This document shows, one piece after another, positions 28,898-46,385 of a stretch of DNA of 46,998 nucleotides. A model generated the notes under the pieces. That model saw only the letters and a program-made list of their open reading frames with translations. It did not search any database and had not been told where the DNA came from. The translations under genes and the position numbers were made by a program. Location of the stretch: assembly GCA_012838035.1 (NCBI GenBank), contig DUQB01000205.1:1-46998 (forward strand), written 5' to 3'. Source of the DNA: Bacillota bacterium. GTDB lineage: Bacteria; Bacillota; Limnochordia; DTU080. Every line of letters begins with the position of its first letter. Position 1 is the stretch's first letter.

Positions 28898-30088
28898 CTA
28901 CCGTCTGCTCAACAACGCGTACAACCGCTCCGCAGCCTCTTTGGTGTCTTCAGGGTTGCCGAAGGTGGAGAAGCGAAAATAGCCTTCGCCGCAGGTGCCA
29001 AAGCCCGCTCCGGGGGTGCCGATCACCTGAATTTCCTGCAACAGATAATCGAAGAACTCCCAGCTGGTCATGTCTGACGGACACTCCAACCAAATGTACG
29101 GCGCATTCTTGCCGCCGCAGTACCAAACGGCCAGTTTATCCAGCGTGCGCATCAAATAGGTCGCGTTCTGCTTGTAAACCTTGATGTTTTCCCGGATTTG
29201 CCGTTGGCCCAGCGGCGTGAATACGGCGGATGCGCCTTTTTGCAGAATGTAGGATACCCCGTTGGTTTTGGTGGTCCGATTGCGCACCCACATGTCATTG
29301 AAGTTCATCCCGTAGCGGGAGAGCTCTTGCGGAATCACCGTATAACCGAACCGAGTGCCCGTAAACCCCGCCGTTTTGGAAAGAGAGCAGATCTCTAGAG
29401 CACAGGTGCGCGCTCCTGCGATTTCAAAGATGCTCCGCGGCAGATCCGCATCTTCGATGAATGCCTCGTAAGCCGCATCGAAGAGGATGATCGCGCCCGC
29501 TCGGTTCGCATAGTCCACCCAGGCTTGCAGTTGCTCCCGGCTGAATACGGCGCCGGTAGGATTATTGGGTGAGCAGATGTAGATAATATCCGCCTCAAGG
29601 CTGTTATCCGGCTGCGGCAAAAAGCCGTTCTCCTTCCCGGAAGCGAGGTGGACGATTTTCCTGCCGCCCATCACGTTGGCGTCCACATAAGCCGGATAAG
29701 CCGGCTCAATCACCAACGTCGTATTGCTCCGGTCGAACAAATCGAGGATGTCTCCTAATTCGTCGCTGGCGCCGTAAGAAACAAAGACGTCCTGGGAACT
29801 GAGGTTGACGCCTCGACTCGCATAATGCGTCGCAATGGTTTCTCGCAGAGACGGTGCGCCGCACTCGGGCATATAGCCGTGAAACGTCTCCGCCTCGGCT
29901 TGGTCGTCCACCGCTTCATGCAACGCTTGGATCACCGCGTCGCAAAGCGGCAGCGACACATCGCCGATACCCAGGCGATACAGGCGGGCCCCGGGGTGCT
30001 CTTCCAGATACGCCTTGATCTTCTGGGAAATCTTGAAGAAAAGGTAAGAGTCCTTCAGATCTTTGTAATGCAGGTTCGGGATCACCAT
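28898..30088 (-). CDS. dapL: LL-diaminopimelate aminotransferase
   Basis: PLP enzyme of 396 residues that converts tetrahydrodipicolinate plus glutamate directly to LL-diaminopimelate, bypassing the acyl-intermediate steps of lysine and peptidoglycan synthesis. Signature stretches are YLFFKISQKI, LGIGDVSLPL, FHGYMPECGAPSLRE, YICSPNNPTG and the PLP lysine in SLSKTAGFTGTRFGY (Lys238). The C-terminus reads GEGYFRFSTFG. The length equals typical bacterial DapL. Its ATG shares one base with the dapF stop (TGATG), giving tight coupling. Last gene of the glnN-pyrG-carA-carB-dapF-dapL operon. Confidence 0.93.
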   Translation of the reverse strand: MVIPNLHYKDLKDSYLFFKISQKIKAYLEEHPGARLYRLGIGDVSLPLCDAVIQALHEAVDDQAEAETFHGYMPECGAPSLRETIATHYASRGVNLSSQDVFVSYGASDELGDILDLFDRSNTTLVIEPAYPAYVDANVMGGRKIVHLASGKENGFLPQPDNSLEADIIYICSPNNPTGAVFSREQLQAWVDYANRAGAIILFDAAYEAFIEDADLPRSIFEIAGARTCALEICSLSKTAGFTGTRFGYTVIPQELSRYGMNFNDMWVRNRTTKTNGVSYILQKGASAVFTPLGQRQIRENIKVYKQNATYLMRTLDKLAVWYCGGKNAPYIWLECPSDMTSWEFFDYLLQEIQVIGTPGAGFGTCGEGYFRFSTFGNPEDTKEAAERLYALLSRR

Positions 30089-30873
30089 CAGACTGTTTCT
30101 CCTTCACATACGGTTTCGGCCGGACCAAGCATCGTCACGTTTTTATCAGGCGCTACCCTCACATGCAGTATGCCACCGTCAAGCTGCACCGCGATCTGCT
30201 CATCGTATGGGCAACAGCCTTTGTTAATCGCCGCCACTGTCGAAGCGCAGGCGCCGGTACCGCAAGCCATGGTTACGCCGCTGCCGCGCTCCCACACCCG
30301 CATACGTAGGGTGCGCTCATCGAGCACCTGCACAAACTCTACGTTCACACCTTCCGGAAAGGCTTCATGGCGCTCCAGTTTCGGCCCCAACGTCGTTAGC
30401 GGCGCCTGGTTGATATCCGGCACAAAAATAACAACGTGCGGATTACCAACAGAGACGGGAGTACACCAAACAGTCATGTCTTCCACCGTCAAGCGCAAAT
30501 CATCCTGCACCATCGCCACGCCCATCTCCACTGCTACGCTCTTCACCTGGCCGTTTTCTACCTCCAGCCGCAAGGTGCGCACGCCCGACAAGGTTTCAAT
30601 CTTTAATTCCGTTTTGGTTGTGTACCCTTTGTCGTAGACATACTTGCCGATACAACGAATGCCGTTACCGCACATTTTGGCTTCACTACCGTCGGCATTG
30701 AAAATCCGCATTTTAAAGTCCGCTACAACTGAGGGCGATATCCACACCATGCCGTCGGAGCCTACGCCGAAATGTCGATCTGACAGCTTAATCGAGAGTT
30801 CCTGCGGGTTTTCCGGCTCACCGTAAACAAACAAATAGTCGTTGCCAAGTCCGTGCATCTTGGTAAAGCGCAT
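30088..30873 (-). CDS. dapF: Diaminopimelate epimerase
   Basis: Cofactor-free epimerase of 261 residues converting LL- to meso-diaminopimelate. The two catalytic cysteines are present in MCGNGIRC (Cys68) and MACGTGACAS (Cys204). The motifs MHGLGNDYLFV, VGNPHVVIFV and RVWERGSGVT complete the family pattern. It is slightly shorter than the usual 270-280 residues but has both lobes. The ATG follows GGAGAG at eight bases. It is 24 bases from carB and overlaps dapL by one base. This order makes the substrate-producing DapL and the epimerase stoichiometric partners. Confidence 0.95.
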   Translation of the reverse strand: MRFTKMHGLGNDYLFVYGEPENPQELSIKLSDRHFGVGSDGMVWISPSVVADFKMRIFNADGSEAKMCGNGIRCIGKYVYDKGYTTKTELKIETLSGVRTLRLEVENGQVKSVAVEMGVAMVQDDLRLTVEDMTVWCTPVSVGNPHVVIFVPDINQAPLTTLGPKLERHEAFPEGVNVEFVQVLDERTLRMRVWERGSGVTMACGTGACASTVAAINKGCCPYDEQIAVQLDGGILHVRVAPDKNVTMLGPAETVCEGETV

Positions 30874-30897
30874 TGATAACTCTCCATTCGCTCTTTA

Positions 30898-33800
30898 CTA
30901 ATTTATAGTCGAGATGCGCAGCGTGATTTCTTCCAACACGTCAAGCAACACGCGTGCCGTATCGAGCGCAGTAATCACCGTCACGTCGTTTTCCACCGCA
31001 CATCGGCGGATAATTCGACTGTCGGAGTTCTTGTGTATCGATTGGTCGCTCCGAGTGTTGATCACATAGGCGATATGACCCTGACGGATGGCATCCAAGA
31101 TGTCGGTTGCGCCTTCACTGATTCTACGCTTGACGCGAGTCCGTATACCGTGGTCTTGCAAAAACTGCGCGGTACCGGCGGTCGCTGCAATGTTAAAACC
31201 CAGATTATAGAAGCGTCTAATCAGCGGCAGTGCTTCCTTTTTATCGCTATCAGCCAACATGGCTAACACCGTGCCGTGGGTAGGCAGTTTTACTCCGGCT
31301 GCCTGCAGGGCTTTATAGAGCGCATGAGTCAACTTGTCATCGTAACCGATGGCTTCGCCCGTTGACTTCATTTCCGGCGAAAGGTAAGCATCGAGCCCTT
31401 TCAACTTGGAAAAAGAGAATGCCGGCACCTTTACATACCAGCGCTCCTTTTCTTTTGGGTACATTGTGTTTATCCCCTGATCCGTCAGACTAACGCCGAG
31501 CATGACCAGCGTGGCGATGTCCGCCAAATTGTAGCCGGTCGCTTTGGATATGAACGGCACGGTACGAGATGAGCGTGGGTTCACTTCGATAACATACACA
31601 TTCTCGTCTTGATCGACGATGAATTGCACATTGAAAAGGCCGATAATACCGATGCCGAACCCCAGACGCTTGATATGAGCAAGGATCAGAGCCTTCACCT
31701 TGTCCGAAATGCTGAAAGTGGGATAAACGCTGATGGAATCGCCGGAATGGATGCCTGTACGCTCCACCAGCTCCATAATGCCGGGAACGAACACGTTCTC
31801 GCCATCGCAGACGGCATCTACCTCCAACTCTTTGCCGCGGATATATTTATCTACCAACACCGGCTTATCTTCATCTACAGCCACAGCCGTTTTCAGGTAG
31901 TACCTCAGTTGCTCCTCGTTAGCCACAATCTGCATCGCCCGCCCACCGAGCACAAAACTGGGCCGCACCAATACAGGGTAACCGACTTCCCGGGCGACAT
32001 TCACTCCATCCGCCAAATTAGTCACCGCTTGACCTTTAGGTTGCGGTATATCCAACGCTTCGAGGAGTTTCTCAAAGGCCTCCCGGTTCTCCGCTTTTTC
32101 AATGGCTTCGCAATCCGTGCCGATGATTTTCACCCCTCTGGCCTGCAGCGGCCCTGCCAGGTTAATCGCCGTCTGGCCGCCGAGCGTGGCGATCACGCCT
32201 GCCGGTTTTTCCAGCGTAATCACGTTCATGACGTCTTCAACGCAGAGGGGCTCAAAGTACAGCTTGTCGGAGGTGGTGTAATCGGTAGACACCGTTTCCG
32301 GATTGTTGTTGATGATGATCGCTTCATACCCGGCCTTCTTTATCGTTTGGACAGCATGAACGGTGGAATAGTCGAACTCCACCCCCTGACCGATCCGAAT
32401 GGGACCGGAGCCGAGGACGATCACCTTTTTCTTATCCGATACAATCGACTCGTTCTCGTCTTCGTACGTGGAATAGAAGTACGGGATATAACTGTCGAAC
32501 TCCGACGCGCAACTGTCGATCATCTTATATACCGGCGTAATATCGTACCGCATGCGCAACTGGAATACGTCGTTTTCGCTCATGCCCCACTGTCTGGCGA
32601 TTTCTCTATCCGAAAAACCCATTTTTTTCGCTTGCGCCAGGACCTGTACATCACCGGGAGAGTTTTTCAGAACAGCTTCCTGATCGATGATGCACTTCAG
32701 TTTGCTCACATACAGTTGATCGATTTGCGTAACTGCGGTGATCTGTTCAGTAGCACAGCCTCTGCGTAAAAGCTCCGCGATGGCGAAAATCCTGTCGTCA
32801 GTTCCTTTCTGAATGTACTCCATTAGCCATGCGTAGCTTTGCTGCTCAAACTTCGGCATATACAAATGCCATGCTCCGACTTCCAACGAGCGAATGGCCT
32901 TGAGCAAGCTTTCTTCAATGGTTCTGCCGATGCTCATCACTTCTCCGGTCGCCATCATCTGGGTAGTGAGAGAGTTGTCAGCATCGGCGAACTTGTCGAA
33001 CGGAAACCGGGGCATCTTGGTCACTACATAATCCAGGGCAGGCTCAAACGCGGCGATTGTATCGGCCGTCTTAATTTCATCTAGGGTCATGCCGACGGCG
33101 ATTTTCGCCGATACATAAGCTATCGGGTATCCGCTTGCTTTGGATGCCAACGCGGAGGAACGCGACACGCGGGGGTTGACCTCGATCACATAGTACTGCA
33201 GCGAGTGGGGGTCCAACGCAAACTGGATATTGCAGCCGCCCTCCACTTTGAGCGCCCGAATAATCTTCAAGGCGCTGTCGCGCAGCATGTGGTACTCTTT
33301 GTTGGTCAGCGTCTGCGAAGGACAAACCACAATGGAATCTCCCGTATGAATACCGACGGGATCCACATTTTCCATGTTGCAGATGGTGATGGCGGTGTCG
33401 TTCTTATCGCGCATCACTTCATACTCAATTTCCTTATAGCCCTTGATGCATTTTTCCACCAGTACCAGCTGCGCGGGCGACAATGCCAATGCGGTCTTCA
33501 TCAATTGCCGCAACTGCACTTCATCATAGGCGAATCCGCTGCCGGAACCGCCCAGTGTAAAAGCGGGCCGCAAAACTACCGGGTAACCGATTTCGGCCGC
33601 GATCACCGCCCCTTCTTCTATGGAGCCGGCGACTGCCGACGGCAGCACCGGTTCACCCAGGCTTTCACACAACTCCTTGAACCGTCGGCGATCTTCCGCT
33701 TGTTCGATGCTGCTGCTCTTGGTACCCAGCAGCTCCACCCCGCACTCTTCTAAAACGCCCTGCTTTTCCAGCTGCATGGCCAGGTTCAGGCCGGTTTGCC

Positions 33801-34051
33801 CCCCCAAGCCCGGTAGAATGGCGTCGGGCCGCTCGCAGCGAATAATCTGGGCGACATAGGGAAAAGTCAACGGCTCCATGTACACTTTGTCGGCAATCGC
33901 CGGGTCGGTCATGATGGTGGCCGGGTTCGAATTGCAGAGTACCACTTGGTACCCTTCCTCTTTTAAGGCAAGGCAGGCTTGTGTGCCGGCATAATCGAAT
34001 TCCGCCGCTTGTCCGATCACAATGGGTCCGGAACCGATAACCAGGACTTTT

Positions 34052-34074
<23 letters not shown>
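30898..34074 (-). CDS. carB: Carbamoyl-phosphate synthase large subunit
   Basis: ATP-dependent synthetase of 1058 residues, the normal size, making carbamoyl phosphate from ammonia (delivered by CarA), bicarbonate and two ATP. Two tandem ATP-grasp halves are visible: the first opens KKVLVIGSGPIVIGQAAEFD, the second KKVIVLGSGPIRIGQGVEFD. An oligomerisation helix region lies between and a C-terminal MGS-like allosteric domain (about 930-1058) follows. I use the GTG at 34074 (MPKRTDIKK), because the upstream frame runs antisense-free but has no homology. It overlaps carA by 23 bases. A product for pyrimidines and arginine. Confidence 0.95.
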
Positions 34075-36803
<2,729 letters not shown>

Positions 36804-36818
36804 CTATCTCGGCTCGGC

Positions 36819-38915
36819 TTACTTGACGCCGAACAGCAACTCGCCGTAAGTGGGAAACGGCCAATACTTTCTGGCGCAAACCAACTCAGCCTCGTCGCAT
36901 ACTACACGCAGCTCGCCCATACAAGGCAGTACGATATCGCGTATGTCGTAGGCTTTCTGACGCGCATCCGGCGCGGCTTTCAGTTTCAGCAACGCGGATT
37001 CCAGGTTGTCGGTTCTGAGAGCAATTTGCTCCGCCAGCCCCGAGAGCTTGTTGACCAATCGTTTTTCCACAACGCACGGTATGGTGTCGTCCAGCGCTCG
37101 TTTCACCGCGGCAGTAGCGGCAATATCATGCGTATATGCCTCTACCGCCGGTAAGATCTCTCTTCTTACCATGTCCACCATGGTGTTGGCCTCAATAATT
37201 ACCGTGCGGCAGTAATTCTCCAGCATAATCTCACACCGCGACTCCAATTCCGCCGTGGTGTAAACACCGTGCGAGGTCAGCATATCGACGTTCTTTTTAT
37301 CCAGCAGATGAGGCATGCAATCCGGCGTCGTCCGATAGTTGCGCAATCCTCTCTTCTCCGTAGCCTCTATTACCCAGGCTTCATCGTAGCCATTGCCGTT
37401 GAAGATAATCCGCTTATGCTCCTTGATCGTCCTTTTGGTCAACGCTTGCAAGGCGGCGTTGAAGTCGGCCGCGCCTTCCAACTGGTCCGCAAACTGCCTT
37501 AACACTTCAGCTACAGCCGTATTGAGCATGATGTTGGCGCAAGCGATGCTGTTGGACGAACCCAGCATGCGGAACTCAAACTTGTTGCCTGTAAACGCGA
37601 AAGGAGAGGTCCGGTTGCGGTCGGTGTTGTCTTTCGGAATTCCGGGCAGCACATCGACGCCCAACTTGATATGGGATTTGCCGCTGCCGTTGTAAGGCGA
37701 ATCCGTTTCAATGGCAGCCAATATGGCGGTCAGCTCGTCGCCGAGGAACATGGAGACAATGGCCGGAGGCGCTTCGTTAGCTCCCAGCCGGTGGTCATTA
37801 CCGGCGGTGGCGACCGATAGGCGCAGCAGATCTTGATACTCATCGACCGCCTTGATTACTGCGCAAAGGAACAACAGGAACTGAGCATTGCTGTACGGGG
37901 TATCGCCCGGCGTCAACAAATTCATGCCTGTATCGGTAGTCAACGACCAGTTGTTGTGCTTGCCGCTGCCGTTCACGCCGGCAAAAGGTTTTTCGTGCAG
38001 CAGACAAACCAGTCCGTGCTTCAACGCCACTTTCTGCATAATCTCCATCGTCAATTGATTGTGATCGGTGGCGATGTTTACGGTGGTGTAAACAGGCGCC
38101 AACTCGTGCTGAGAAGGTGCGACCTCGTTGTGAGCCGTTTTGGCGAGGATGCCCAGCTTCCAAAGCTCTTCGTTCAGCTCAGCCATATAGGCCGCAACGC
38201 GCGGCTTGATGGCGCCGAAGTAGTGGTCGTCCATCTCCTGACCCTTAGGCGGCTTCGCGCCGAATAGCGTGCGTCCCGTGTACATTAGGTCGCGGCGCAG
38301 CGCGAACATCTCTTTATCCACCAGGAAGTATTCCTGTTCGGGACCCACCGCAGGTCGCACGCACTTGACGGAGTTGTTTCCGAATAAGCGCAGAATGCGC
38401 AGCGCCTGCCGGTTCAGCGCCTCCATGGAACGCAGCAATGGTGTTTTCTTATCCAGAGCCTCGCCGCCATAGGAACAAAACGCCGTGGGAATACACAACG
38501 TCTTGGCTTTGATGAATGCATATGAAGTCGGATCCCAGGCGGTATAGCCCCTAGCCTCGAAGGTGGCCCGTAGTCCGCCGGACGGAAAAGAGGAGGCGTC
38601 GGGTTCGCCTTTGATCAGCTCTTTTCCGCTGAACTCCATGATGACTCTGCCCTCAGGAGCAGGGGAGATGAAGCTGTCATGTTTTTCCGCAGTGATGCCG
38701 GTCAATGGTTGAAACCAATGCGTAAAATGAGTAGCGCCTTTTGCAATGGCCCAGTCCTTCATGGCATTAGCCACTGCGTCGGCCACCGATTCTTCCAACG
38801 GCGCCCCCTCGTCGATCGTCTTCTTTAACGACTGGTAAGTTGCGGCAGACAATTTGGCCCGCATCACCTGTTCGTTAAACACCATACAGCCGAAATACTC
38901 CGAAACACCTGCCAT
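36819..38915 (-). CDS. glnN: Type III glutamine synthetase (GSIII)
   Basis: ATP-dependent glutamine synthetase of 698 residues, the GSIII class length, making glutamine from glutamate and ammonia. N-terminal [20 protein letters not shown] is class specific. Central motifs are [40 protein letters not shown] and [16 protein letters not shown]/metal sites include [10 protein letters not shown] and [15 protein letters not shown]. The start is the ATG at 38915, seven bases after GAGGAGG. The longer frame upstream is only the leader hairpin read through. First gene of the operon with pyrG, carAB and dap genes. Its leader has a promoter and an immediate terminator, suggesting control by antitermination. 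Confidence 0.95.
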
Positions 38916-38956
38916 AATGCGCCTCCTCGCCGTAGTAAAAAGAACCAAGTATACGC

Positions 38957-39008
38957 AAAAAGGCAAAGGCGCCTTCGAGGGATCTTCCTCAAAGACGCCT
39001 TTGCCTTT
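38957..39008 (-). terminator. Leader terminator/attenuator in front of glnN
   Basis: On the minus strand a 19-pair stem (38962-38980 with 38987-39005) closes a six-base loop, AAGATC. It has two G-U pairs, which would be C-A mismatches on the plus strand, so the fold belongs to the glnN transcript. AAA/TTT extend the stem and five T follow. It lies only about 3-5 bases after the predicted start of transcription and 40 bases before the ribosome binding site. Unless relieved, it should stop transcription of the whole operon. The loop has A in position 1 but G in position 3, so it is not a textbook ANTAR loop. Confidence 0.85.
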
Positions 39009-39015
39009 GACGGCT

Positions 39016-39044
39016 ATTTTATATACGCAGAAACGATTTGTCAA
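39016..39044 (-). promoter_or_regulatory. Sigma-A-type promoter of the glnN operon
   Basis: Minus-strand TTGACA (39044-39039), 17-base spacer and TAAAAT (39021-39016). A nearly consensus vegetative promoter that directs transcription straight into the leader terminator. Confidence 0.85.
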
Positions 39045-39115
39045 TCCCCCGTTCGCCATTGTGTCGCGTGTGTTCTGCACACAGGTATACATGGCTCTAT
39101 ACAGCGGTTTAAGCC

Positions 39116-39143
39116 TTGACAAACTGATGCCTGTAGATATAAT
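39116..39143 (+). promoter_or_regulatory. Sigma-A-type promoter of the split glutamate synthase cluster
   Basis: TTGACA (39116-39121), 16-base spacer and TATAAT (39138-39143): both hexamers are perfect consensus. Start of transcription expected near 39150, just before the leader terminator. Confidence 0.88.
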
Positions 39144-39157
39144 TCTTTTCAATGAGC

Positions 39158-39211
39158 AATGGCGTTCATACGGCGAAAGCTATGCCTTTCCGCCGGTGGA
39201 CGCCATTTTTG
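39158..39211 (+). terminator. Leader terminator/attenuator in front of the glutamate synthase cluster
   Basis: Outer arms AATGGCGT (39158-39165) and ACGCCATT (39200-39207) enclose an internal loop and a second stem (CGGC-GAAAG with CTTTC-GCCG, one bulged C) capped by the six-base loop CTATGC. A TTTTTG tail follows. It lies between the promoter and the ribosome binding site of the first gene (GTG at 39238). Arrangement mirrors the glnN leader on the other side. The conserved core of the glutamine (glnA) riboswitch is not present. Confidence 0.8.
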
Positions 39212-39237
39212 TTTACTGCGAAAGGACGGGAGACGTC

Positions 39238-40329
39238 GTGCGCTTAGAAGGTCAGGTACGCATACCATCCGGTTGTGCCGTCGCCGCCGTGATTTCCCGG
39301 GCGGGGAAGGTGATGTCCGGTGAGAAAATCATCACGGCCATGAAGCCGATGCACGATCGCTCAAACGGTCTGGGCGGCGGCTATGCCGGCTACGGCATAT
39401 ACCCGGAATATAGAGATTTCTACGCCTTCCACTTGTTCTTCAACGATAACACCGCCCGCAAACAGTGCGAGCAATTACTGAAGGAAGGCTACGAAGTTGT
39501 CCAAGCGGAGCTTATCCCTACGCGTCAAGTTGCCGCCATTACCGACGCACCGCTCATATGGCGTTATATCGTGCAACCATTGCGCTCTTGTCTTGAGCGT
39601 GTCCAGCTCGATGAAAAGGAATACGTCACCCGCACCGTGATGAAGATCAACACGGAACACGACGGCGCCAACGTGTTTTCCAGCGGGAAAAACATGGGCG
39701 CCTTCAAAGCGGTGGGCTTTCCGGAAGATGTGGGCGCGTTTTACCGCTTGGACGAGTATGCCGGGTATTGTTGGACGGCGCACGGTCGTTATCCTACTAA
39801 TACGCCAGGCTGGTGGGGCGGCGCTCATCCGTTCACGCTGCTCGACTATTCCATCGTGCACAACGGGGAGATTTCTTCCTACGACGCCAACCGCCGGTTC
39901 ATTGAAATGTACGGCTACAAATGTACGTTGCAGACCGATACCGAGGTTATGACCTATATTATGGATTACTTATTGCGCATCCAAAGCTTGACTTTAGAAG
40001 AAGCGGCAGCGGTGATTGCGGCGCCCTTCTGGAGCACGATCGACATGATGAACGACCAGGAACGCGAGAAACTCACCTATTTGAGAGCCGTATTCGCCAG
40101 TTTGCTCGTTACCGGACCGTTCTCCATCGTGCTCGGTTTCAGCGGCGGGCTGATGGCGCTGAACGATCGGCTGAAACTACGCTCTATGGTCGTGGGAGAA
40201 AAGGACGATAAGGTGTTCATCGCCAGCGAAGAAGCCGCCATTCGGGCTATGGAGCCGGATGCGGAGAACATTTTTGCGCCCGCGGGCGGAGAACCGGTAA
40301 TTGTACGTTTGGAAGAGGGTTCTTACTGA
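39238..40329 (+). CDS. Glutamate synthase, class II glutamine amidotransferase subunit (GltB1-like)
   Basis: Separate amidotransferase subunit of 363 residues that would release ammonia from glutamine for the synthase domain next door. Motifs are HDRSNGLGGGYAGYGIYPEY, WTAHGRYPTNTPGWWGGAHP, SIVHNGEISSYDANRRFIE and LQTDTEVMTYI, all Ntn-amidotransferase. I take the GTG at 39238, six bases after a GGACGGGAG site. The catalytic cysteine would then be Cys13 in RIPSGCAVAAV rather than residue 2, so a short propeptide must be cleaved. The longer upstream frame reads through the leader terminator and lacks homology. It shares one base with the next gene (TGATG). Confidence 0.88.
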   Translation: MRLEGQVRIPSGCAVAAVISRAGKVMSGEKIITAMKPMHDRSNGLGGGYAGYGIYPEYRDFYAFHLFFNDNTARKQCEQLLKEGYEVVQAELIPTRQVAAITDAPLIWRYIVQPLRSCLERVQLDEKEYVTRTVMKINTEHDGANVFSSGKNMGAFKAVGFPEDVGAFYRLDEYAGYCWTAHGRYPTNTPGWWGGAHPFTLLDYSIVHNGEISSYDANRRFIEMYGYKCTLQTDTEVMTYIMDYLLRIQSLTLEEAAAVIAAPFWSTIDMMNDQEREKLTYLRAVFASLLVTGPFSIVLGFSGGLMALNDRLKLRSMVVGEKDDKVFIASEEAAIRAMEPDAENIFAPAGGEPVIVRLEEGSY

Positions 40330-41834
40330 TGAGAATTGAGTATGTGTACCCCGAGTTTGAGGTTGTGCGTAATGAAGCGCGTTGTATTCAGTGCCGCGTG
40401 TGTGAGCGCCAGTGCGCCAATGAGGTGCATTCCTTCGACCCCGATACAGGCCTGATGCTGAGCGATGAAAGCAAATGCGTCAACTGTCAGCGCTGCGTCG
40501 CGCTTTGCCCCACGCGGGCGCTGAAAATTGTGAAGAGCGATTGCGCTTTGCGCGAAAACGCCAACTGGCCGCAAGGCTTGATTAAAGAGATCTACAAGCA
40601 GGCGAACAGCGGCGGGGTACTCCTTTCGTCAATGGGCAACCCCAATCCGCTCCCTGTCTATTGGGATAAAATCCTGATCAATGCCTCACAGGTGACCAAT
40701 CCGTCCATCGATCCCTTGCGCGAACCGATGGAGACCCGGGTATTCCTGGGCAAAAAGCCGGCCAAGGTGGAGCGAGACGAAGGCGACGGGCTGAAATGCA
40801 CACTCGCGCCGCAGCTTACCCTGGCGATGCCGGTCATGTTCTCGGCTATGAGTTACGGTTCCATCAGCTACAACGCGCATGAAAGTCTGGCGCGGGCCGC
40901 TGATGCGCTCGGCATCTACTACAACACCGGCGAAGGCGGGCTGCATGAAGACTTCTACCGTTACGGGCAAAACACCATTGTGCAGGTAGCCTCCGGTCGT
41001 TTCGGCGTACACAAGGACTATTTGGCGGCAGGCGCCGCAATTGAGATCAAAATGGGGCAAGGGGCTAAGCCGGGGATCGGCGGTCATCTACCCGGCGCCA
41101 AAATCGTCGGGGACATCTCCAGGACCAGAATGATCTCCGAAGGCACCGACGCCATTTCGCCCGCGCCGCACCACGACATTTATTCCATTGAGGATTTGCG
41201 GCAACTCGTCTACTCGCTAAAGGAAGCGACCGAGTATAAAAAGCCCATCATCGTGAAGGTAGCGGCGGTGCACAATATCGCCGCCATTGCCGGCGGCATC
41301 GCCAGAAGCGGTGCGGATATCATCGCCATCGACGGATTCCGCGGCGGTACCGGCGCCGCCCCCACCAGGATTCGCGATAATGTCGGCATTCCGATAGAAC
41401 CGGCCTTGGCCGCCGTAGACCAACGACTGCGAGAGGAAGGCATCCGGAACCAAACGTCACTAGTGGTAGGCGGCAGCATCCGGAGTGCGGCCGATGTGGT
41501 AAAGGCCATCGCCCTGGGTGCCGATGCCTGCTATATCGCAACTGCCGCTCTGCTGGCGTTGGGCTGTCACCTGTGTCGCTCCTGCCATACCGGCAAGTGC
41601 AACTGGGGCATCGCCACGCAGCGTCCTGATCTGGTGAAGCGTTTGAATCCCGATATCGGCAGCGAGCGGCTCATCCGTCTGATGACGGCGTGGAAGCACG
41701 AGATTATGGAACTGATGGGCGGCATGGGCATCAACTCCATAGAAAGCCTGCGTGGTAACCGCTTGATGCTGCGCGGGGTAAATCTCAATGAAAAGGAGCT
41801 AGAGATACTCGGTATCTCGCATGCGGGAGAATGA
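40329..41834 (+). CDS. Glutamate synthase, FMN/Fe-S synthase subunit (GltB2-like) with N-terminal ferredoxin domain
   Basis: Central subunit of 501 residues, carrying out reductive transfer of ammonia to 2-oxoglutarate. The N-terminus holds two [4Fe-4S] sites (Cys19, 22, 25, 29 and Cys50, 53, 56, 60). The FMN-binding glutamate synthase barrel follows, with MPVMFSAMSYGSISYNAHES, GGLHEDFYRYG, GQGAKPGIGGHLPGAKI and IAIDGFRGGTGAAPTRIRDN. The [3Fe-4S]-type cluster is LGCHLCRSCHTGKCNWGIATQ-like, spaced as usual. This is the archaeal/clostridial split form, in which bacterial GltB is divided. Starts in a one-base overlap with the amidotransferase gene and overlaps the ferredoxin gene by four bases. 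Confidence 0.92.
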   Translation: MRIEYVYPEFEVVRNEARCIQCRVCERQCANEVHSFDPDTGLMLSDESKCVNCQRCVALCPTRALKIVKSDCALRENANWPQGLIKEIYKQANSGGVLLSSMGNPNPLPVYWDKILINASQVTNPSIDPLREPMETRVFLGKKPAKVERDEGDGLKCTLAPQLTLAMPVMFSAMSYGSISYNAHESLARAADALGIYYNTGEGGLHEDFYRYGQNTIVQVASGRFGVHKDYLAAGAAIEIKMGQGAKPGIGGHLPGAKIVGDISRTRMISEGTDAISPAPHHDIYSIEDLRQLVYSLKEATEYKKPIIVKVAAVHNIAAIAGGIARSGADIIAIDGFRGGTGAAPTRIRDNVGIPIEPALAAVDQRLREEGIRNQTSLVVGGSIRSAADVVKAIALGADACYIATAALLALGCHLCRSCHTGKCNWGIATQRPDLVKRLNPDIGSERLIRLMTAWKHEIMELMGGMGINSIESLRGNRLMLRGVNLNEKELEILGISHAGE

Positions 41835-42259
41835 AACGGATATTTGTAAATGAAAAATGGTGTCTGGGATGCCGGCTATGCGAGTACTACTGCGCATTTG
41901 CCAACTCCGGCGAGATCAACATGGTTAAAGCGCTGAAAGACAAGCCGATCTATCCGCGCTTGCGCGTAGAGGACGACGGCGGTGTGACATATGCCGTCTC
42001 CTGTAGACACTGCACCGATCCTCTGTGCGTAAGAAGCTGCATTGCCGCCGCGCTCAGCGTTGACGCAGGGGTGGTCACCATCGATCGCGATCGATGTGTC
42101 AGCTGTTATACCTGCATTTTGGTATGCCCTTACGGCGCACTGGCACACGATGACGCCGGAGTGGTGCGTAAATGCGAGTTGTGCCTAAACAACGCGATCG
42201 GGCAACCTGCCTGCGTAGCCGGTTGCCCGAATAGAGCCATTGTGTATGAAGAGAGGTGA
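41831..42259 (+). CDS. Four-cluster ferredoxin-type electron transfer subunit
   Basis: Iron-sulphur protein of 142 residues like the HycB/DmsB electron-transfer subunits. Four [4Fe-4S] sites are spelled out: Cys11, 14, 17, 21; Cys58, 61, 66, 70; Cys89, 92, 95, 99; Cys115, 118, 128, 132. It probably passes electrons between the FAD oxidoreductase encoded next and the synthase subunit. The ATG overlaps the synthase stop (ATGA), so the genes are coupled. No signal peptide, thus cytoplasmic. Confidence 0.9.
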   Translation: MKRIFVNEKWCLGCRLCEYYCAFANSGEINMVKALKDKPIYPRLRVEDDGGVTYAVSCRHCTDPLCVRSCIAAALSVDAGVVTIDRDRCVSCYTCILVCPYGALAHDDAGVVRKCELCLNNAIGQPACVAGCPNRAIVYEER

Positions 42260-42266
42260 AAGATCC

Positions 42267-43514
42267 ATGCAGCGCTATGTAGTAATCGGCAACGGCGTCG
42301 CAGCTGTGGGCTGTATTGAAGGTTTACGCAGCGTTGATGGCGCAACGCCTATTACCGTTGTATCGGCGGAAAAGCACCCGGTCTACTGCCGCCCGCTCAT
42401 CTCTTATTACCTGGAAGGCAAGACTGACCGCGACAAAATGCAATATCGCCCGGGGGATTTTTACCAAAAAATGGGTTGCGAGGTGTTGTACGGCGTATCG
42501 GCAGTGAGGATCGATCCTCTAGCGAAGACGGTCGCATTGAACAACGGTGACAGCCTTTCCTATTCGGCACTCTGCGTGGCAACCGGATCTTCCCCCTTTC
42601 TTCCACCAATCGCCGGGTTAGACAGTGTGCGGCAGAAGTGCACGTTCATGACATTAGATGATGCGCTGGCGCTGGAAAAGGCCGTCAATCCAGCCAGCCA
42701 GGTGCTGATTGTCGGCGCCGGTCTAATCGGACTCAAATGTGCGGAGGGCTTGTTGGCACGAGTGGGTAGCATTACGGTGTGCGATCTGGCCGATCGTGTT
42801 TTGTCCAGCATACTGGACAACGACTGCGCCGCCGTTGTGCAAAAACACTTAGAAGATCACCGTATCCGGTTTATGCTGAGCGACAGCGTGGAACGCTTTG
42901 AAGGCGACAAGGCTTATATGAAGAGCGGCGCCACAGTGGATTTTGACGTATTGGTAGCGGCAGTGGGCGTACGTGCCAACGCCGCGCTGGCCAAGGATGC
43001 GGGGATCGCAGTGAATAGAGGCATCCTCGTCAACAATCAAATGCAAACATCCGTTTCGGATGTATACGCGGCTGGTGACTGCGCCGAGGGTGAAGACGTT
43101 TCCTGTGGAGAAAAGCGGGTGCTCGCCATCATGCCCAATGCTTATATGCAAGGACGATGCGCCGGAATCAACATGGCCGGCGGCTCCGAGGCGTTTAACA
43201 AGGGCATGCCGATGAACTCCATCGGCTTTTTCGGGTTACATGTGATGACCGCGGGTACGTATTACAGTCCGGAGGCCGGAGGGGACGTATACGAGGAGAC
43301 AGCGGCCGGCATGCGCAAAAAGCTTTTCAGCCGCGGCGGCTTTCTTACCGGATTCGTTTTTGTGGGCAAAACCGAGCGGGTGGGTATCTATACCTCATTG
43401 ATCAGAGAACGGATTCCGCTGAACACCATCAACTACGAGCTGTTGAAAAAGGCTGTCTCTCTGGCGCCATTCTCAGATGATTATCGCCGAGAGAGACTTG
43501 GAGGTGTGGTATAA
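42267..43514 (+). CDS. FAD-dependent NAD(P)H oxidoreductase (pyridine nucleotide-disulphide type)
   Basis: Flavoprotein of 415 residues. FAD-binding RYVVIGNGVAAVGCIEGL at the N-terminus is followed by HPVYCRPLISYYLEGK. The NAD(P)H-binding motif is VLIVGAGLIGLKCAEGL, and the second FAD contact is VSDVYAAGDCAE. It resembles NADH-rubredoxin/ferredoxin reductases and presumably takes the role of GltD, feeding electrons through the four-cluster protein. The start is the ATG at 42267 after GAGAGGTG; an earlier in-frame ATG overlaps the ferredoxin gene. The end overlaps nothing; the next gene starts five bases later. Confidence 0.9.
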   Translation: MQRYVVIGNGVAAVGCIEGLRSVDGATPITVVSAEKHPVYCRPLISYYLEGKTDRDKMQYRPGDFYQKMGCEVLYGVSAVRIDPLAKTVALNNGDSLSYSALCVATGSSPFLPPIAGLDSVRQKCTFMTLDDALALEKAVNPASQVLIVGAGLIGLKCAEGLLARVGSITVCDLADRVLSSILDNDCAAVVQKHLEDHRIRFMLSDSVERFEGDKAYMKSGATVDFDVLVAAVGVRANAALAKDAGIAVNRGILVNNQMQTSVSDVYAAGDCAEGEDVSCGEKRVLAIMPNAYMQGRCAGINMAGGSEAFNKGMPMNSIGFFGLHVMTAGTYYSPEAGGDVYEETAAGMRKKLFSRGGFLTGFVFVGKTERVGIYTSLIRERIPLNTINYELLKKAVSLAPFSDDYRRERLGGVV

Positions 43515-43518
43515 TATT

Positions 43519-44238
43519 ATGTTAATTAATGCTTCACACCTGGATTATGTCGCTTTGAACGAGTCGATTCGCAAGACCGACGAGAACTGCGAGCTCATCG
43601 GCTGCCTGGGACAAAGGTATATTGCGGCGGGCATGGCGCAGCGCTCCATTCGCATTGACGGAGTGCCCGGAAATGCGCTGGGCGCATACCTCAACGGCGC
43701 TACCATTACCGTGTACGGGAACGCCCAAGATGCGGTGGGCGACACCATGAACGACGGCAGAATTATCGTGCACGGCAATGTGGGCGATGCAGTCGGTTAT
43801 GCCATGCGCAGCGGCGAGATCTTCGTGAAGGGAAATGCCGGATACCGTGCCGGCATCCATATGAAGGAGTATCGCGACAAAGTGCCGGTAATGGTCATCG
43901 GCGGAGTCGCCGGCAGTTTTCTAGGTGAGTATCAGGCCGGCGGGAAAATTATCGTACTCGGACTTGGCCGCGCTTCGCGGCCGATCATCAGCAACTTCCC
44001 TTGTACCGGCATGCACGGCGGGAAAGTGTACCTGCGTTCAGACTGTCGCGATGTGTTATTTCCAGATCAGGTAACGGTTAGGTCGACGACAGATGAGGAT
44101 TTGGCAGACATCTTCAAGTATGTATCCGAGTATTGCAACCTGTTTGGATACGACGTCGCGCAAGTGATGAATGCGGCGTTTACCGTGGTTACGCCGAACA
44201 GCAACAATCCATATAAACAGATGTATGTGGCAAACTAA
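43519..44238 (+). CDS. Glutamate synthase GXGXG-domain subunit (GltB3-like)
   Basis: Protein of 239 residues made of the right-handed beta-helix of glutamate synthase alpha subunits. Repeated Gly-rich turns are visible (VYGNAQDAVGDTMNDGRIIV, HGNVGDAVGYAMRSGEIFV, KGNAGYRAGIHMKEY). This piece is a separate subunit in archaeal-type glutamate synthases. In the fused bacterial enzyme it is the C-terminal domain that shapes the ammonia tunnel region. The ATG at 43519 has GGAGGTG 12 bases upstream, a long spacing. A GTG at 43504 is possible but lies inside that site. Downstream is a GSI gene after 18 bases. Confidence 0.88.
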   Translation: MLINASHLDYVALNESIRKTDENCELIGCLGQRYIAAGMAQRSIRIDGVPGNALGAYLNGATITVYGNAQDAVGDTMNDGRIIVHGNVGDAVGYAMRSGEIFVKGNAGYRAGIHMKEYRDKVPVMVIGGVAGSFLGEYQAGGKIIVLGLGRASRPIISNFPCTGMHGGKVYLRSDCRDVLFPDQVTVRSTTDEDLADIFKYVSEYCNLFGYDVAQVMNAAFTVVTPNSNNPYKQMYVAN

Positions 44239-44256
44239 CGGAAAGCGGGTAGAGGT

Positions 44257-45468
44257 ATGGTCTATTCGGCGCAAGAGGTTATGCAATATGTCCAAGAGGA
44301 AGACGTGAAATTCATCCGTCTCGCCTTTTGCGATATCTTCGGCAAACAGAAAAACATATCCATTATGCCAAGCGAACTGCCTCGTGCCTTTGTATCCGGC
44401 ATCGCCATTGACGCCTCGGCGATTGCCGGATTTGGTAATATCACGCGCTCCGATTTGTTTCTCCACCCGGACCCGACTACTCTGGCCGTGTTGCCTTGGC
44501 GACCGGAACACGGCCGAGTTGTCCGCATGTTCTGCAGCATCTCCCACTCCGACGGCAGAATAATTGAGGGCGACACCAGGAGCTTTTTGGTTAATACCAT
44601 CGAAGCGGCCAAGAAAGCCGGCGTCAGTTTCGCCTTTGGTTCGGAAATGGAATTCTACCTGTTTAAGCTGGACGAACGCGGTAATCCCACCAAAGAACCT
44701 TACGACAACGCCGGATATATGGATATCGCGCCTGAAGACAAGGGCGAGAATGTGCGCCGAGAGATTTGCCTTACCCTAGAGCAGATGGGCATTTATCCGG
44801 AGAGCTCGCACCACGAGGAAGGGCCGGGGCAGAACGAAATCGATTTCCGCTACTCCGACCCGCTCTCAGCAGCGGACAACACCATAACGTTTCAGGCGGT
44901 GGTAAAGGCTATAGCGCAGCGCAACGGCCTTTACGCCGATTTTTCCCCTAAACCGCTCCCTGATAAACCCGGAAACGGTTTTCACATTAATATGTCGGTA
45001 AGGGCTGACGACGGCGAGGATCTTCTCCCCTATTTGATTGCCGGGCTGTTGGATAAAGTCATCGACATGACGGTTTTCCTGAATCCGTGCGAGCAATCGT
45101 ACGAACGGTTAGGCAGCAGTAAAGCTCCCCGCTATGTCTCCTGGTCGAGCGAGAACCGCTCGCAGTTGGTCCGCATACCGGCAGCGGCAGGAGAATACCG
45201 GCGAGCCGAACTGCGCTCTCCTGATCCGACGGCAAATCCGTATCTTGCTTTCGCCCTGCTGATTAATGCGGGTCTCCACGGTATAAAGAACAGACTACCT
45301 TTAGGCAGTCCGGCTGATATCGACTTGTTCACAGCAGACCCGGCCACCCTTGCTCAGTTCAAAAAACTGCCTCAGACATTGGAAGAAGCGATGGCAGCGG
45401 CCGCAAACAGCACATTTATCGCCGAGTATCTGCCGACAGAGGTAATCGGCCCCTACATTCGGCGTTAA
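44257..45468 (+). CDS. glnA: Type I glutamine synthetase, short form
   Basis: Glutamine synthetase of 403 residues. Class I motifs are present: VKFIRLAFCDIFGKQKN, RSDLFLHPDP, FAFGSEMEFYLFKLDERG, ESSHHEEGPGQNEIDFR, NGFHINMS, and RSPDPTANPYLAFALLINAG. The usual GSI is about 440 residues; here the C-terminus stops after IAEYLPTEVIGPYIRR, without the last helical tail. No adenylylation loop of the enterobacterial kind is visible, which fits a GSI-alpha. It is the second, unrelated glutamine synthetase in the window and lies at the end of the glutamate synthase cluster, before the ANTAR regulator. Start ATG right after TAGAGGT. Confidence 0.93.
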   Translation: MVYSAQEVMQYVQEEDVKFIRLAFCDIFGKQKNISIMPSELPRAFVSGIAIDASAIAGFGNITRSDLFLHPDPTTLAVLPWRPEHGRVVRMFCSISHSDGRIIEGDTRSFLVNTIEAAKKAGVSFAFGSEMEFYLFKLDERGNPTKEPYDNAGYMDIAPEDKGENVRREICLTLEQMGIYPESSHHEEGPGQNEIDFRYSDPLSAADNTITFQAVVKAIAQRNGLYADFSPKPLPDKPGNGFHINMSVRADDGEDLLPYLIAGLLDKVIDMTVFLNPCEQSYERLGSSKAPRYVSWSSENRSQLVRIPAAAGEYRRAELRSPDPTANPYLAFALLINAGLHGIKNRLPLGSPADIDLFTADPATLAQFKKLPQTLEEAMAAAANSTFIAEYLPTEVIGPYIRR

Positions 45469-45513
45469 ACGCAGCATCGCGAACGCTTGGCGCATAAGCA
45501 GGGGATGAGTAGA

Positions 45514-46101
45514 ATGACTCTTAAAGAACAAGTATACAGCGTGCTTGTGGTATCGTCTTCGGACAGTTTCAACAACGCCATAAAACCCCTGCTCCCCGAG
45601 TCCAAGCTCAATCCGGTTCATATTCTCGGTAGTATCAGCGCAGCCAAACAGACTGTCCTGGCCAGGTTTTATGATTTTGTTCTGATCAACGCTCCCCTCC
45701 CCGACGATCCCGGCACAAGATTCGCCATTGATGTATGCAGCGAAAAAGGCGCCGTCGCCCTCTTGTTTGTGAAAAATGAACTGTACGATGAAATAACGGA
45801 CAAAGTAACCCAACACGGCGTATACACCTTGGCCAAACCAACCTCTAAACAAATGGTATTGCAGGCTTTCAGTTGGATGGCTTCCACAAGAGAACGTTTA
45901 CGGAATTTGGAGAAGAAGACGCTCTCCATTGAAGAAAAAATGGCGGAAATCCGTCTGGTCAACCGCGCCAAATGGCTGCTGATCGACGTGCTGAAAATGA
46001 CGGAGCCCAACGCCCACCGTTATATAGAGAAACAAGCGATGGATAGGTGCGTCTCGCGCCGGGAGATCGCAGAGAGTATTATTCACACTTATGGGCGCTA
46101 A
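45514..46101 (+). CDS. ANTAR-domain RNA-binding antiterminator with pseudo-receiver (NitR-like)
   Basis: RNA-binding regulator of 195 residues. The N-terminal receiver-like fold (about 7-120) lacks the phosphorylatable Asp: the expected position is Asn59 in FVLINAPLP. Lys remains in LAKPTSK. A coiled-coil linker (RERLRNLEKKTLSIEEKMAE) leads to the ANTAR domain (about 140-193): VNRAKWLLIDVLKMTEPNAH and REIAESII. ANTAR proteins bind paired hexaloop RNA hairpins and prevent termination. In clostridia a similar gene next to glnA (NitR) controls nitrogen genes. The ATG at 45514 follows AGGGG. It is the last gene of the plus-strand cluster and the likely regulator of the two leader terminators at 38.9-39.2 kb. 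Confidence 0.85.
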   Translation: MTLKEQVYSVLVVSSSDSFNNAIKPLLPESKLNPVHILGSISAAKQTVLARFYDFVLINAPLPDDPGTRFAIDVCSEKGAVALLFVKNELYDEITDKVTQHGVYTLAKPTSKQMVLQAFSWMASTRERLRNLEKKTLSIEEKMAEIRLVNRAKWLLIDVLKMTEPNAHRYIEKQAMDRCVSRREIAESIIHTYGR

Positions 46102-46116
46102 AAAAAGAGACGCCAA

Positions 46117-46136
46117 CCCACGACTAAAGTCGTGGG
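46117..46136 (-). repeat. IS200/IS605-type end hairpin, isolated copy
   Basis: CCCACGACT and AGTCGTGGG form a perfect nine-base stem around AA. On the minus strand it reads CACGACTTTAGTCGTGGG. This resembles the right-end hairpin at the window start (CACGACTTTAGTTGTGGG) with one change. There is no complete tnpB next to it. It sits 16 bases after the ANTAR gene, and the T-run needed for a plus-strand terminator is missing. Confidence 0.55.
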
Positions 46137-46385
46137 CTCCCTCTCGGCAATACTTTCGTGGAAGTGAGGATCCTTTCGGCGACTTATGCCCTGATCGTGT
46201 CACCAGCTTAGTTGTCTTTCGCGCCAAGACATCACGCCTGCAGATTTCCGGATAGCGCATAGCTGTTGAGCTCCGTTATTACATTGGAGGGCAGCCTTAC
46301 AGGTCTACTGAACAACTATCTGCTTCGTCACGAGGATACCCGCGACATTGCCGTTCATCCGTAATAGTAATACTCGCAGTAGCAC
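46137..46385. other. Gene-free stretch
   Basis: About 250 bases without a supportable gene. If the hairpin at 46117 is an IS605-type right end on the minus strand, this should hold the end of tnpB, but the minus-strand frame (SSLPRKYCREGAHDFSRG) shows no DRDxNAAxN motif. Confidence 0.4.

Follow-up and report, generated by a model that had tools for sequence, protein, structure and literature searches.

What controls the transcription of two clusters of nitrogen-metabolism genes that diverge from one short intergenic region of a Limnochordia genome? The window, that is, the whole stretch of 46,998 nucleotides analysed (contig DUQB01000205.1), carries six such genes on the minus strand, from glnN to an aminotransferase gene, and seven on the plus strand, from gltB1 to the gene of an ANTAR regulator:

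36819-38915, minus strand: glnN, type III glutamine synthetase (PF12437, 5e-82)
35172-36794, minus strand: pyrG, CTP synthase, 24 nt behind glnN (PF06418, PyrG equivalog)
34052-35293, minus strand: carA, carbamoyl-phosphate synthase small (glutaminase) subunit (PF00988)
30898-34212, minus strand: carB, carbamoyl-phosphate synthase large subunit, with an over-extended start in the listed open reading frame (PF02786)
30088-30873, minus strand: dapF, diaminopimelate epimerase (PF01678)
28898-30088, minus strand: class I/II aminotransferase, probably DapL (PF00155)
39238-40329, plus strand: gltB1, glutamate synthase glutamine-amidotransferase (class II) subunit (PF00310)
40329-41834, plus strand: gltB2, glutamate synthase FMN domain with ferredoxin domain (PF01645, 5e-139)
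41831-42259, plus strand: 4Fe-4S ferredoxin-type subunit (PF13247)
42240-43514, plus strand: NAD(P)-linked pyridine nucleotide-disulphide oxidoreductase (PF07992)
43477-44238, plus strand: gltB3, glutamate synthase GXGXG domain (PF01493)
44257-45468, plus strand: glnA, glutamine synthetase (PF00120, 2.2e-87)
45487-46101, plus strand: pseudo-receiver/ANTAR regulator, last gene of the glt operon, probable start ATG at 45514 (PF03861, 1.3e-15)

Promoters and terminators of the divergent leaders

The region 38916-39237 is the gap between the start codons of glnN (ATG at 38915, minus strand) and gltB1 (GTG at 39238, plus strand). It accommodates, in each direction, a promoter of the sigma70 type followed by an intrinsic terminator:

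39016-39044, minus strand: glnN promoter, TTGACA-N17-TAAAAT, 11/12 consensus match
38958-39008, minus strand: glnN terminator, with a hexaloop hairpin (see below) within its 5' strand, then a U-run
39116-39143, plus strand: gltB1 promoter, TTGACA-N16-TATAAT, 12/12 consensus match
39158-39210, plus strand: gltB1 terminator, its 5' strand being the loop and 3' arm of a second hexaloop hairpin; U-run at 39206-39210

These are the divergent promoters described in an earlier note on this DNA, and they are the top two promoter-like sites within 27.5-47.0 kb, where the remaining four reach 9/12; the same scan found no further strong promoter inside either gene cluster. The stem and T-run reported before glnN are also present, with 22 pairs in place of the 19 first counted, a loop AAGAUC and a free energy of -39.4 kcal/mol over 55 nt (z -8.5; 0/200 shuffles equally good), and the G-U pairs speak for a stem formed in glnN-sense RNA, as had been argued. 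The second stem-loop, before the glutamate synthase cluster, folds as a terminator-like stem with UUUUU (-29.0 kcal/mol over 63 nt, z -4.4). The positions of the two start codons agree with the claim that both terminators lie in short untranslated leaders. If each cluster is a single operon, about 13 closely spaced nitrogen-metabolism genes would stand behind two default-off leader terminators, much as the earlier note had supposed. Its failure to find a glnA riboswitch was repeated in an Rfam scan of the window, which gave no match at either leader, to glutamine or glnA riboswitches or to any other family. A scan of seven related loci found no riboswitch at the leaders and returned only an unrelated pemK RNA. 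A direct repeat, GCGTATA, flanks the glnN hairpin at 38951-38957 and 39022-39028 (minus strand), probably by chance.

Hexaloop hairpins at the predicted transcript starts

If transcription starts about 7 nt past the -10 box, as predicted, a hairpin begins no more than about 3 nt into each transcript, and the first and fourth of its six loop nucleotides are A and G (A1/G4):

38989-39010, minus strand: glnN hexaloop hairpin UCAAAGGC[AAAGGC]GUCUUUGA, 5' end of the glnN transcript (as RNA, CAAAGGC[AAAGGC]GUCUUUG)
39152-39169, plus strand: gltB1 hexaloop hairpin AUGAGC[AAUGGC]GUUCAU, 5' end of the glt transcript

Loop positions A1 and G4 are needed for ANTAR proteins (PMC3369936, PMC3369931), and both leaders present them on stems of more than the 3 bp asked of an ANTAR target. 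The earlier note, which reported no classical paired ANTAR hexaloops, was wrong in discounting them: each leader has one such loop, and 45487-46101 encodes an ANTAR protein. Nor does the signal seem to be of a new form, as had been suggested, since ANTAR-type hexaloops are accompanied by an ANTAR regulator gene at the end of the glt operon. The unusual feature is that each leader has one hexaloop, not two. Folded alone, the two hairpins have little stability, at -4.2 and -5.3 kcal/mol, and shuffled sequences fold equally well, so that the case for them rests on conservation.

This was assessed in 80 Clostridia loci encoding gltB1 at 74-81% identity. Most of them share the layout of the window, with glnN divergent from gltB1-gltB2-(Fd-oxidoreductase)-GXGXG-glnA-ANTAR, and a promoter matching at least 10/12 was found in 61 of the 68 glnN leaders examined. 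When leaders were chosen by promoter alone and a stem of at least 5 bp was required, hexaloops were present in 62/79 gltB1 leaders and 51/61 glnN leaders, in most cases 13-16 nt past the -10 box. A1 and G4 are found in all 62 of the former and in 50 of the latter (112/113 together). Moreover, these loci hold 217 promoters matching at least 11/12, and an A1/G4 hexaloop comes after 134 of them, compared with 1 in shuffled sequence. The genes downstream, assigned by Pfam, form a coherent regulon: gltB1 (66), glnN (47), gdhA (8), pyrG (5), purC (4), purA (1) and guaA (1). Two of the 134 have no readable gene downstream and all others precede these seven.

In six of the relatives pyrG is served by a separate hexaloop leader, and purC, purA, guaA and pyrG are preceded by such leaders elsewhere in related loci. 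Between glnN and gltB1, gdhA has its own in L012, L011, L013, L016, L023, L047, L050, L051, L071 and L086. A weaker match, without a clear promoter, precedes amtB in L056, and in single genomes an 863-aa protein and a MATE-type transporter follow hexaloop-like matches (L060 9813, minus strand, and L129). Many gut Clostridia carry tandem pairs of hexaloop-terminator units upstream of glnN, where the window has one; the tandem units (for example in L010, L034, L059 and L083) are usually 60-130 nt apart. In L044 and L068 the loops upstream of gltB1 are GAUGAU and GACGGU, with G replacing A at position 1, and the glnN loops of these genomes are AUUGGC and ACUGGC, a lineage-specific loop change that could be compared with changes in the ANTAR protein.

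A covariance model scored the glnN hairpin at 30.3 bits, the best in the genome, and the gltB1 hairpin at 25.5 bits; beyond these two leaders, its search of the same genome found nothing with promoter and terminator context. The model was rejected as sole evidence: its E-values are optimistic and it is not specific by itself, with many weak chance matches, about 46 of them at E up to 0.02, in 71 genomes of the class that lack an ANTAR gene. The top context-readable matches there were without promoter and terminator.

In each window leader the start hairpin and the terminator are alternative structures, as emerged from the folding that the earlier note had called for. The two exclude each other because the loop and 3' arm of the hairpin make up the 5' strand of the terminator. 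In the loci of the relatives, the terminator takes in the hexaloop in 176/178 units. At least three hexaloop bases are paired inside the terminator in 168/169 distinct terminators (all six in 117), which is the overlap of antiterminator hairpin and terminator 5' strand expected of an ANTAR target. With loop base 3 masked during folding, this base matched its terminator partner in 138/165 cases, against a maximum of 125 in 2000 shuffles.

The covariation comparison in related genomes, which had also been proposed, showed that the stems covary. In 127 distinct hairpins, 97% of pair cells are paired, with 152 double changes and a covariation of 0.553, versus 0.246 when shuffled. Most of the double changes separate the gltB1-type from the glnN-type stem, which are two paralogous leader types; a third type, ACAGC[AAAGGC]GCUGU, occurs in a relative from the same class (G028). 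The 5' arm of the gltB1 hexaloop hairpin lies outside the terminator and is still conserved.

The ANTAR regulator and the distribution of the locus

The product of 45487-46101 has a C-terminal ANTAR domain (PF03861, 57.3 bits against a cut-off of 27.3), and no other ANTAR match occurs in the genome of 3.7 Mb. Its protein profile matches the structures of Rv1626, EutV, AmiR and NasR. Among the residues of EutV that contact RNA (PMC8934654), Lys149, Glu160 and Met172 correspond to K153, E164 and M176, which are invariant among homologues of the regulator. EutV Tyr164, which stacks on G4 (PMC8934654), is replaced by an invariant His168, AmiR appearing to have His there too, and an invariant Ile stands opposite EutV Arg142. 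This protein is most likely the one that opens both switches. Its receiver is degenerate, the phosphoacceptor position having Asn instead of Asp, as in 25/26 homologues, a departure from the phosphorylated EutV type that makes phosphorylation by a histidine kinase unlikely. The regulator may possibly be controlled by a partner, for example the adjacent GlnA or a PII protein.

Hexaloop leaders and the ANTAR gene tend to occur together. Within the class of the window, the gene is present in 2/73 genomes, that of the window itself and G028. Five genomes of the class have a gltB1 homologue, and the two of these with an ANTAR gene have hexaloop leaders. None was found in the three that lack it, the gene start or upstream region being seen in part in G059 and G060. 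Conversely, 14 of 16 hexaloop-bearing relatives tested encode an ANTAR protein, and the remaining two are probably incomplete MAGs.

The gltB1 product is up to 81% identical to those of Lachnospiraceae (gut Clostridia), versus 55% to that of a genome of the same family (G002). This closer relationship to gut Clostridia suggests that the locus moved as a unit, and the region 28898-46101, switches and regulator included, was probably acquired horizontally. Its composition now matches its genome, with a tetranucleotide correlation of 0.91-0.94 with the other contigs. Contamination of the MAG by this contig is not favoured, given that the gut Clostridia loci tested reach at most 0.81; the single-copy state of pyrG in the genome also counts against it.

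A proposed single-hexaloop switch and its alternatives

Antitermination controlled by the ANTAR protein, through a variant with a single hexaloop at the transcript start, appears to be the best explanation of these leaders, with a probability of roughly 0.8. RNA polymerase would start about 7 nt past the -10 box and make the short A1/G4 hairpin at once. Were the hairpin left unbound, the downstream complementary strand would capture its loop and 3' arm, the long terminator would form and transcription would stop, by default, after about 50-60 nt. Were the active ANTAR protein to bind the hexaloop while RNA polymerase is still near, these bases would be locked, the lower stem of the terminator would be lost, and both glnN-pyrG-carAB-... 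and gltB1-...-glnA-ANTAR would be transcribed. One of these switches precedes the operon that ends in the regulator gene, from which positive autoregulation of the system is expected. The switches are probably activated by nitrogen or glutamine status, and activation through a partner protein or a ligand reporting that state would be likelier than through a histidine kinase. Binding, its positive sign, the activating signal and the sufficiency of one hexaloop are what we infer from this arrangement.

The last point touches on published work, since the characterised ANTAR targets have two hexaloops (PMC3369931). In place of hexaloops P1 and P2 joined by a short linker, the window leaders have one each, and a hairpin starting at about +1 to +3 leaves no room upstream for another. 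Second hexaloops sought upstream, downstream and at the terminator apex were not generally present in the relatives: an A1/G4 hexaloop lies downstream in 30/176 units (about 17%), and about 83% are without one even when stems of 3 bp are allowed. In the window, the glnN leader has none and the gltB1 leader has only one with a 3-bp UUU/AAA stem, beyond the terminator. The leaders are for this reason not placed in the dual-hexaloop RNA family, though they would work like it. A longer linker between the two hexaloops abolishes antitermination by EutV (PMC8934654), so that one hexaloop might not suffice. In the same structural study of EutV with RNA, the minimal site for ANTAR binding was redrawn to a single hexaloop, but antitermination was said to require that two be visited in turn, and work on the existence of single-hexaloop sites was called for (PMC8934654).

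It could be argued that the leaders are classical dual-hexaloop attenuators whose second, degenerate hexaloop is the apical loop of the terminator (AAGAUC for glnN, CUAUGC for gltB1). Both window terminators do end in 6-nt loops, A1/G4 apical hexaloops occur in two relatives (ACCGUA in L077, AAGGAC in L083), and second A1/G4 hexaloops are slightly commoner than in shuffles (15/79 versus 7.2; 15/97 versus 10.0). However, apical loop lengths peak at 3-5 nt; among about 145 single apical loops only 17 have 6 nt, two of these being A1/G4. Together with the rarity of second hexaloops described above, this makes a degenerate partner unlikely.

A reading in which the hairpin and the ANTAR protein act negatively, or on translation or RNA stability, with the terminator as a fixed partial attenuator, is improbable. 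An mRNA can be protected by a 5'-terminal hairpin, which would suit an effect on stability, and mycobacterial ANTAR proteins repress translation (PMC8164766). In the window, however, the hairpin is far from the start codon and leaves the ribosome-binding site uncovered, and in nearly every relative its loop and 3' arm can pair with the terminator's 3' strand. A riboswitch binding glutamine or a similar ligand, or a new ANTAR-independent antiterminator as the earlier note proposed, would fit leader terminators without an Rfam match, but is very improbable: the leader ahead of the terminator is a hairpin of 18-22 nt, too small for an aptamer, A1 and G4 are known ANTAR determinants and the operon contains an ANTAR gene. 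That the strong hairpins with U-runs between these divergent genes are ordinary terminators insulating two operons is scarcely credible, since each follows the promoter of its operon and is oriented as that operon is transcribed, and since the conserved 5' arm of the gltB1 hexaloop takes no part in the terminator.

The proposed single-hexaloop antitermination comes closest to the dual-hexaloop leaders of Enterococcus faecalis eut (EutV), Klebsiella oxytoca nasF (NasR) and Pseudomonas aeruginosa amiE (AmiR), which share with it A1/G4 hexaloops, nitrogen genes, an ANTAR regulator and an antiterminator hairpin that has bases in common with the terminator's 5' strand (PMC3369931). Unlike these, the window leaders have one hexaloop, at the 5' end of the transcript, and their terminators sequester the loop bases as well as the 3' arm. 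The regulator resembles AmiR in its degenerate receiver, coiled coil, ANTAR domain and His at the EutV Tyr164 position; AmiR is controlled by AmiC, whereas no AmiC-like gene was seen beside the ANTAR gene of the window. ANTAR targets precede glutamate synthase genes in Desulfotomaculum reducens, and a six-operon set is known in D. acetoxidans (PMC3369931). These are likewise cases of Firmicute glutamate synthase genes under ANTAR-type leaders, with several attenuators per genome, but they were found with a dual-hairpin model, and the set described here adds gdhA, pyrG, purC, purA and guaA. Published searches for ANTAR targets used such models and would tend to miss single-hexaloop units.

An ANTAR gene also adjoins a glutamate synthase cluster in solvent clostridia, where it encodes the antiterminator NitR, and in C. 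thermocellum, where it is co-expressed with the cluster (Clo1313_2030-2036) and the homologue has been suggested to be its antiterminator (PMC4676874). The link between regulator and target is thus not wholly new; that source gives no hexaloop anatomy. The older NitR literature aside, neither the leader anatomy with one hexaloop nor the wider set of genes appears to have been described in the literature on ANTAR targets.

It is rather probable that these leaders represent a natural and widely conserved class, in which one 5'-terminal hexaloop and a dimeric ANTAR protein would compete with the terminator to control a glutamine/glutamate regulon in many gut Clostridia. If true, such a class would be contrary to the current model, which needs two successive hexaloops. 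The family comprises about 180 conserved units in about 80 genomes, complete with promoters and terminators and for the most part bearing a single hexaloop, and it makes the question raised in PMC8934654 directly testable in vitro. The units would also define a concrete nitrogen-control circuit, with one ANTAR protein and several switches preceding GS, GOGAT, GDH and nucleotide-synthesis genes, for gut Clostridia that are abundant and in many cases uncultured.

A minor observation concerns the end of the plus-strand cluster. Just past the ANTAR gene, at 46110-46145, lies the palindrome CCCACGACTAAAGTCGTGGG, which we take to resemble an end of the IS200/IS605 type.
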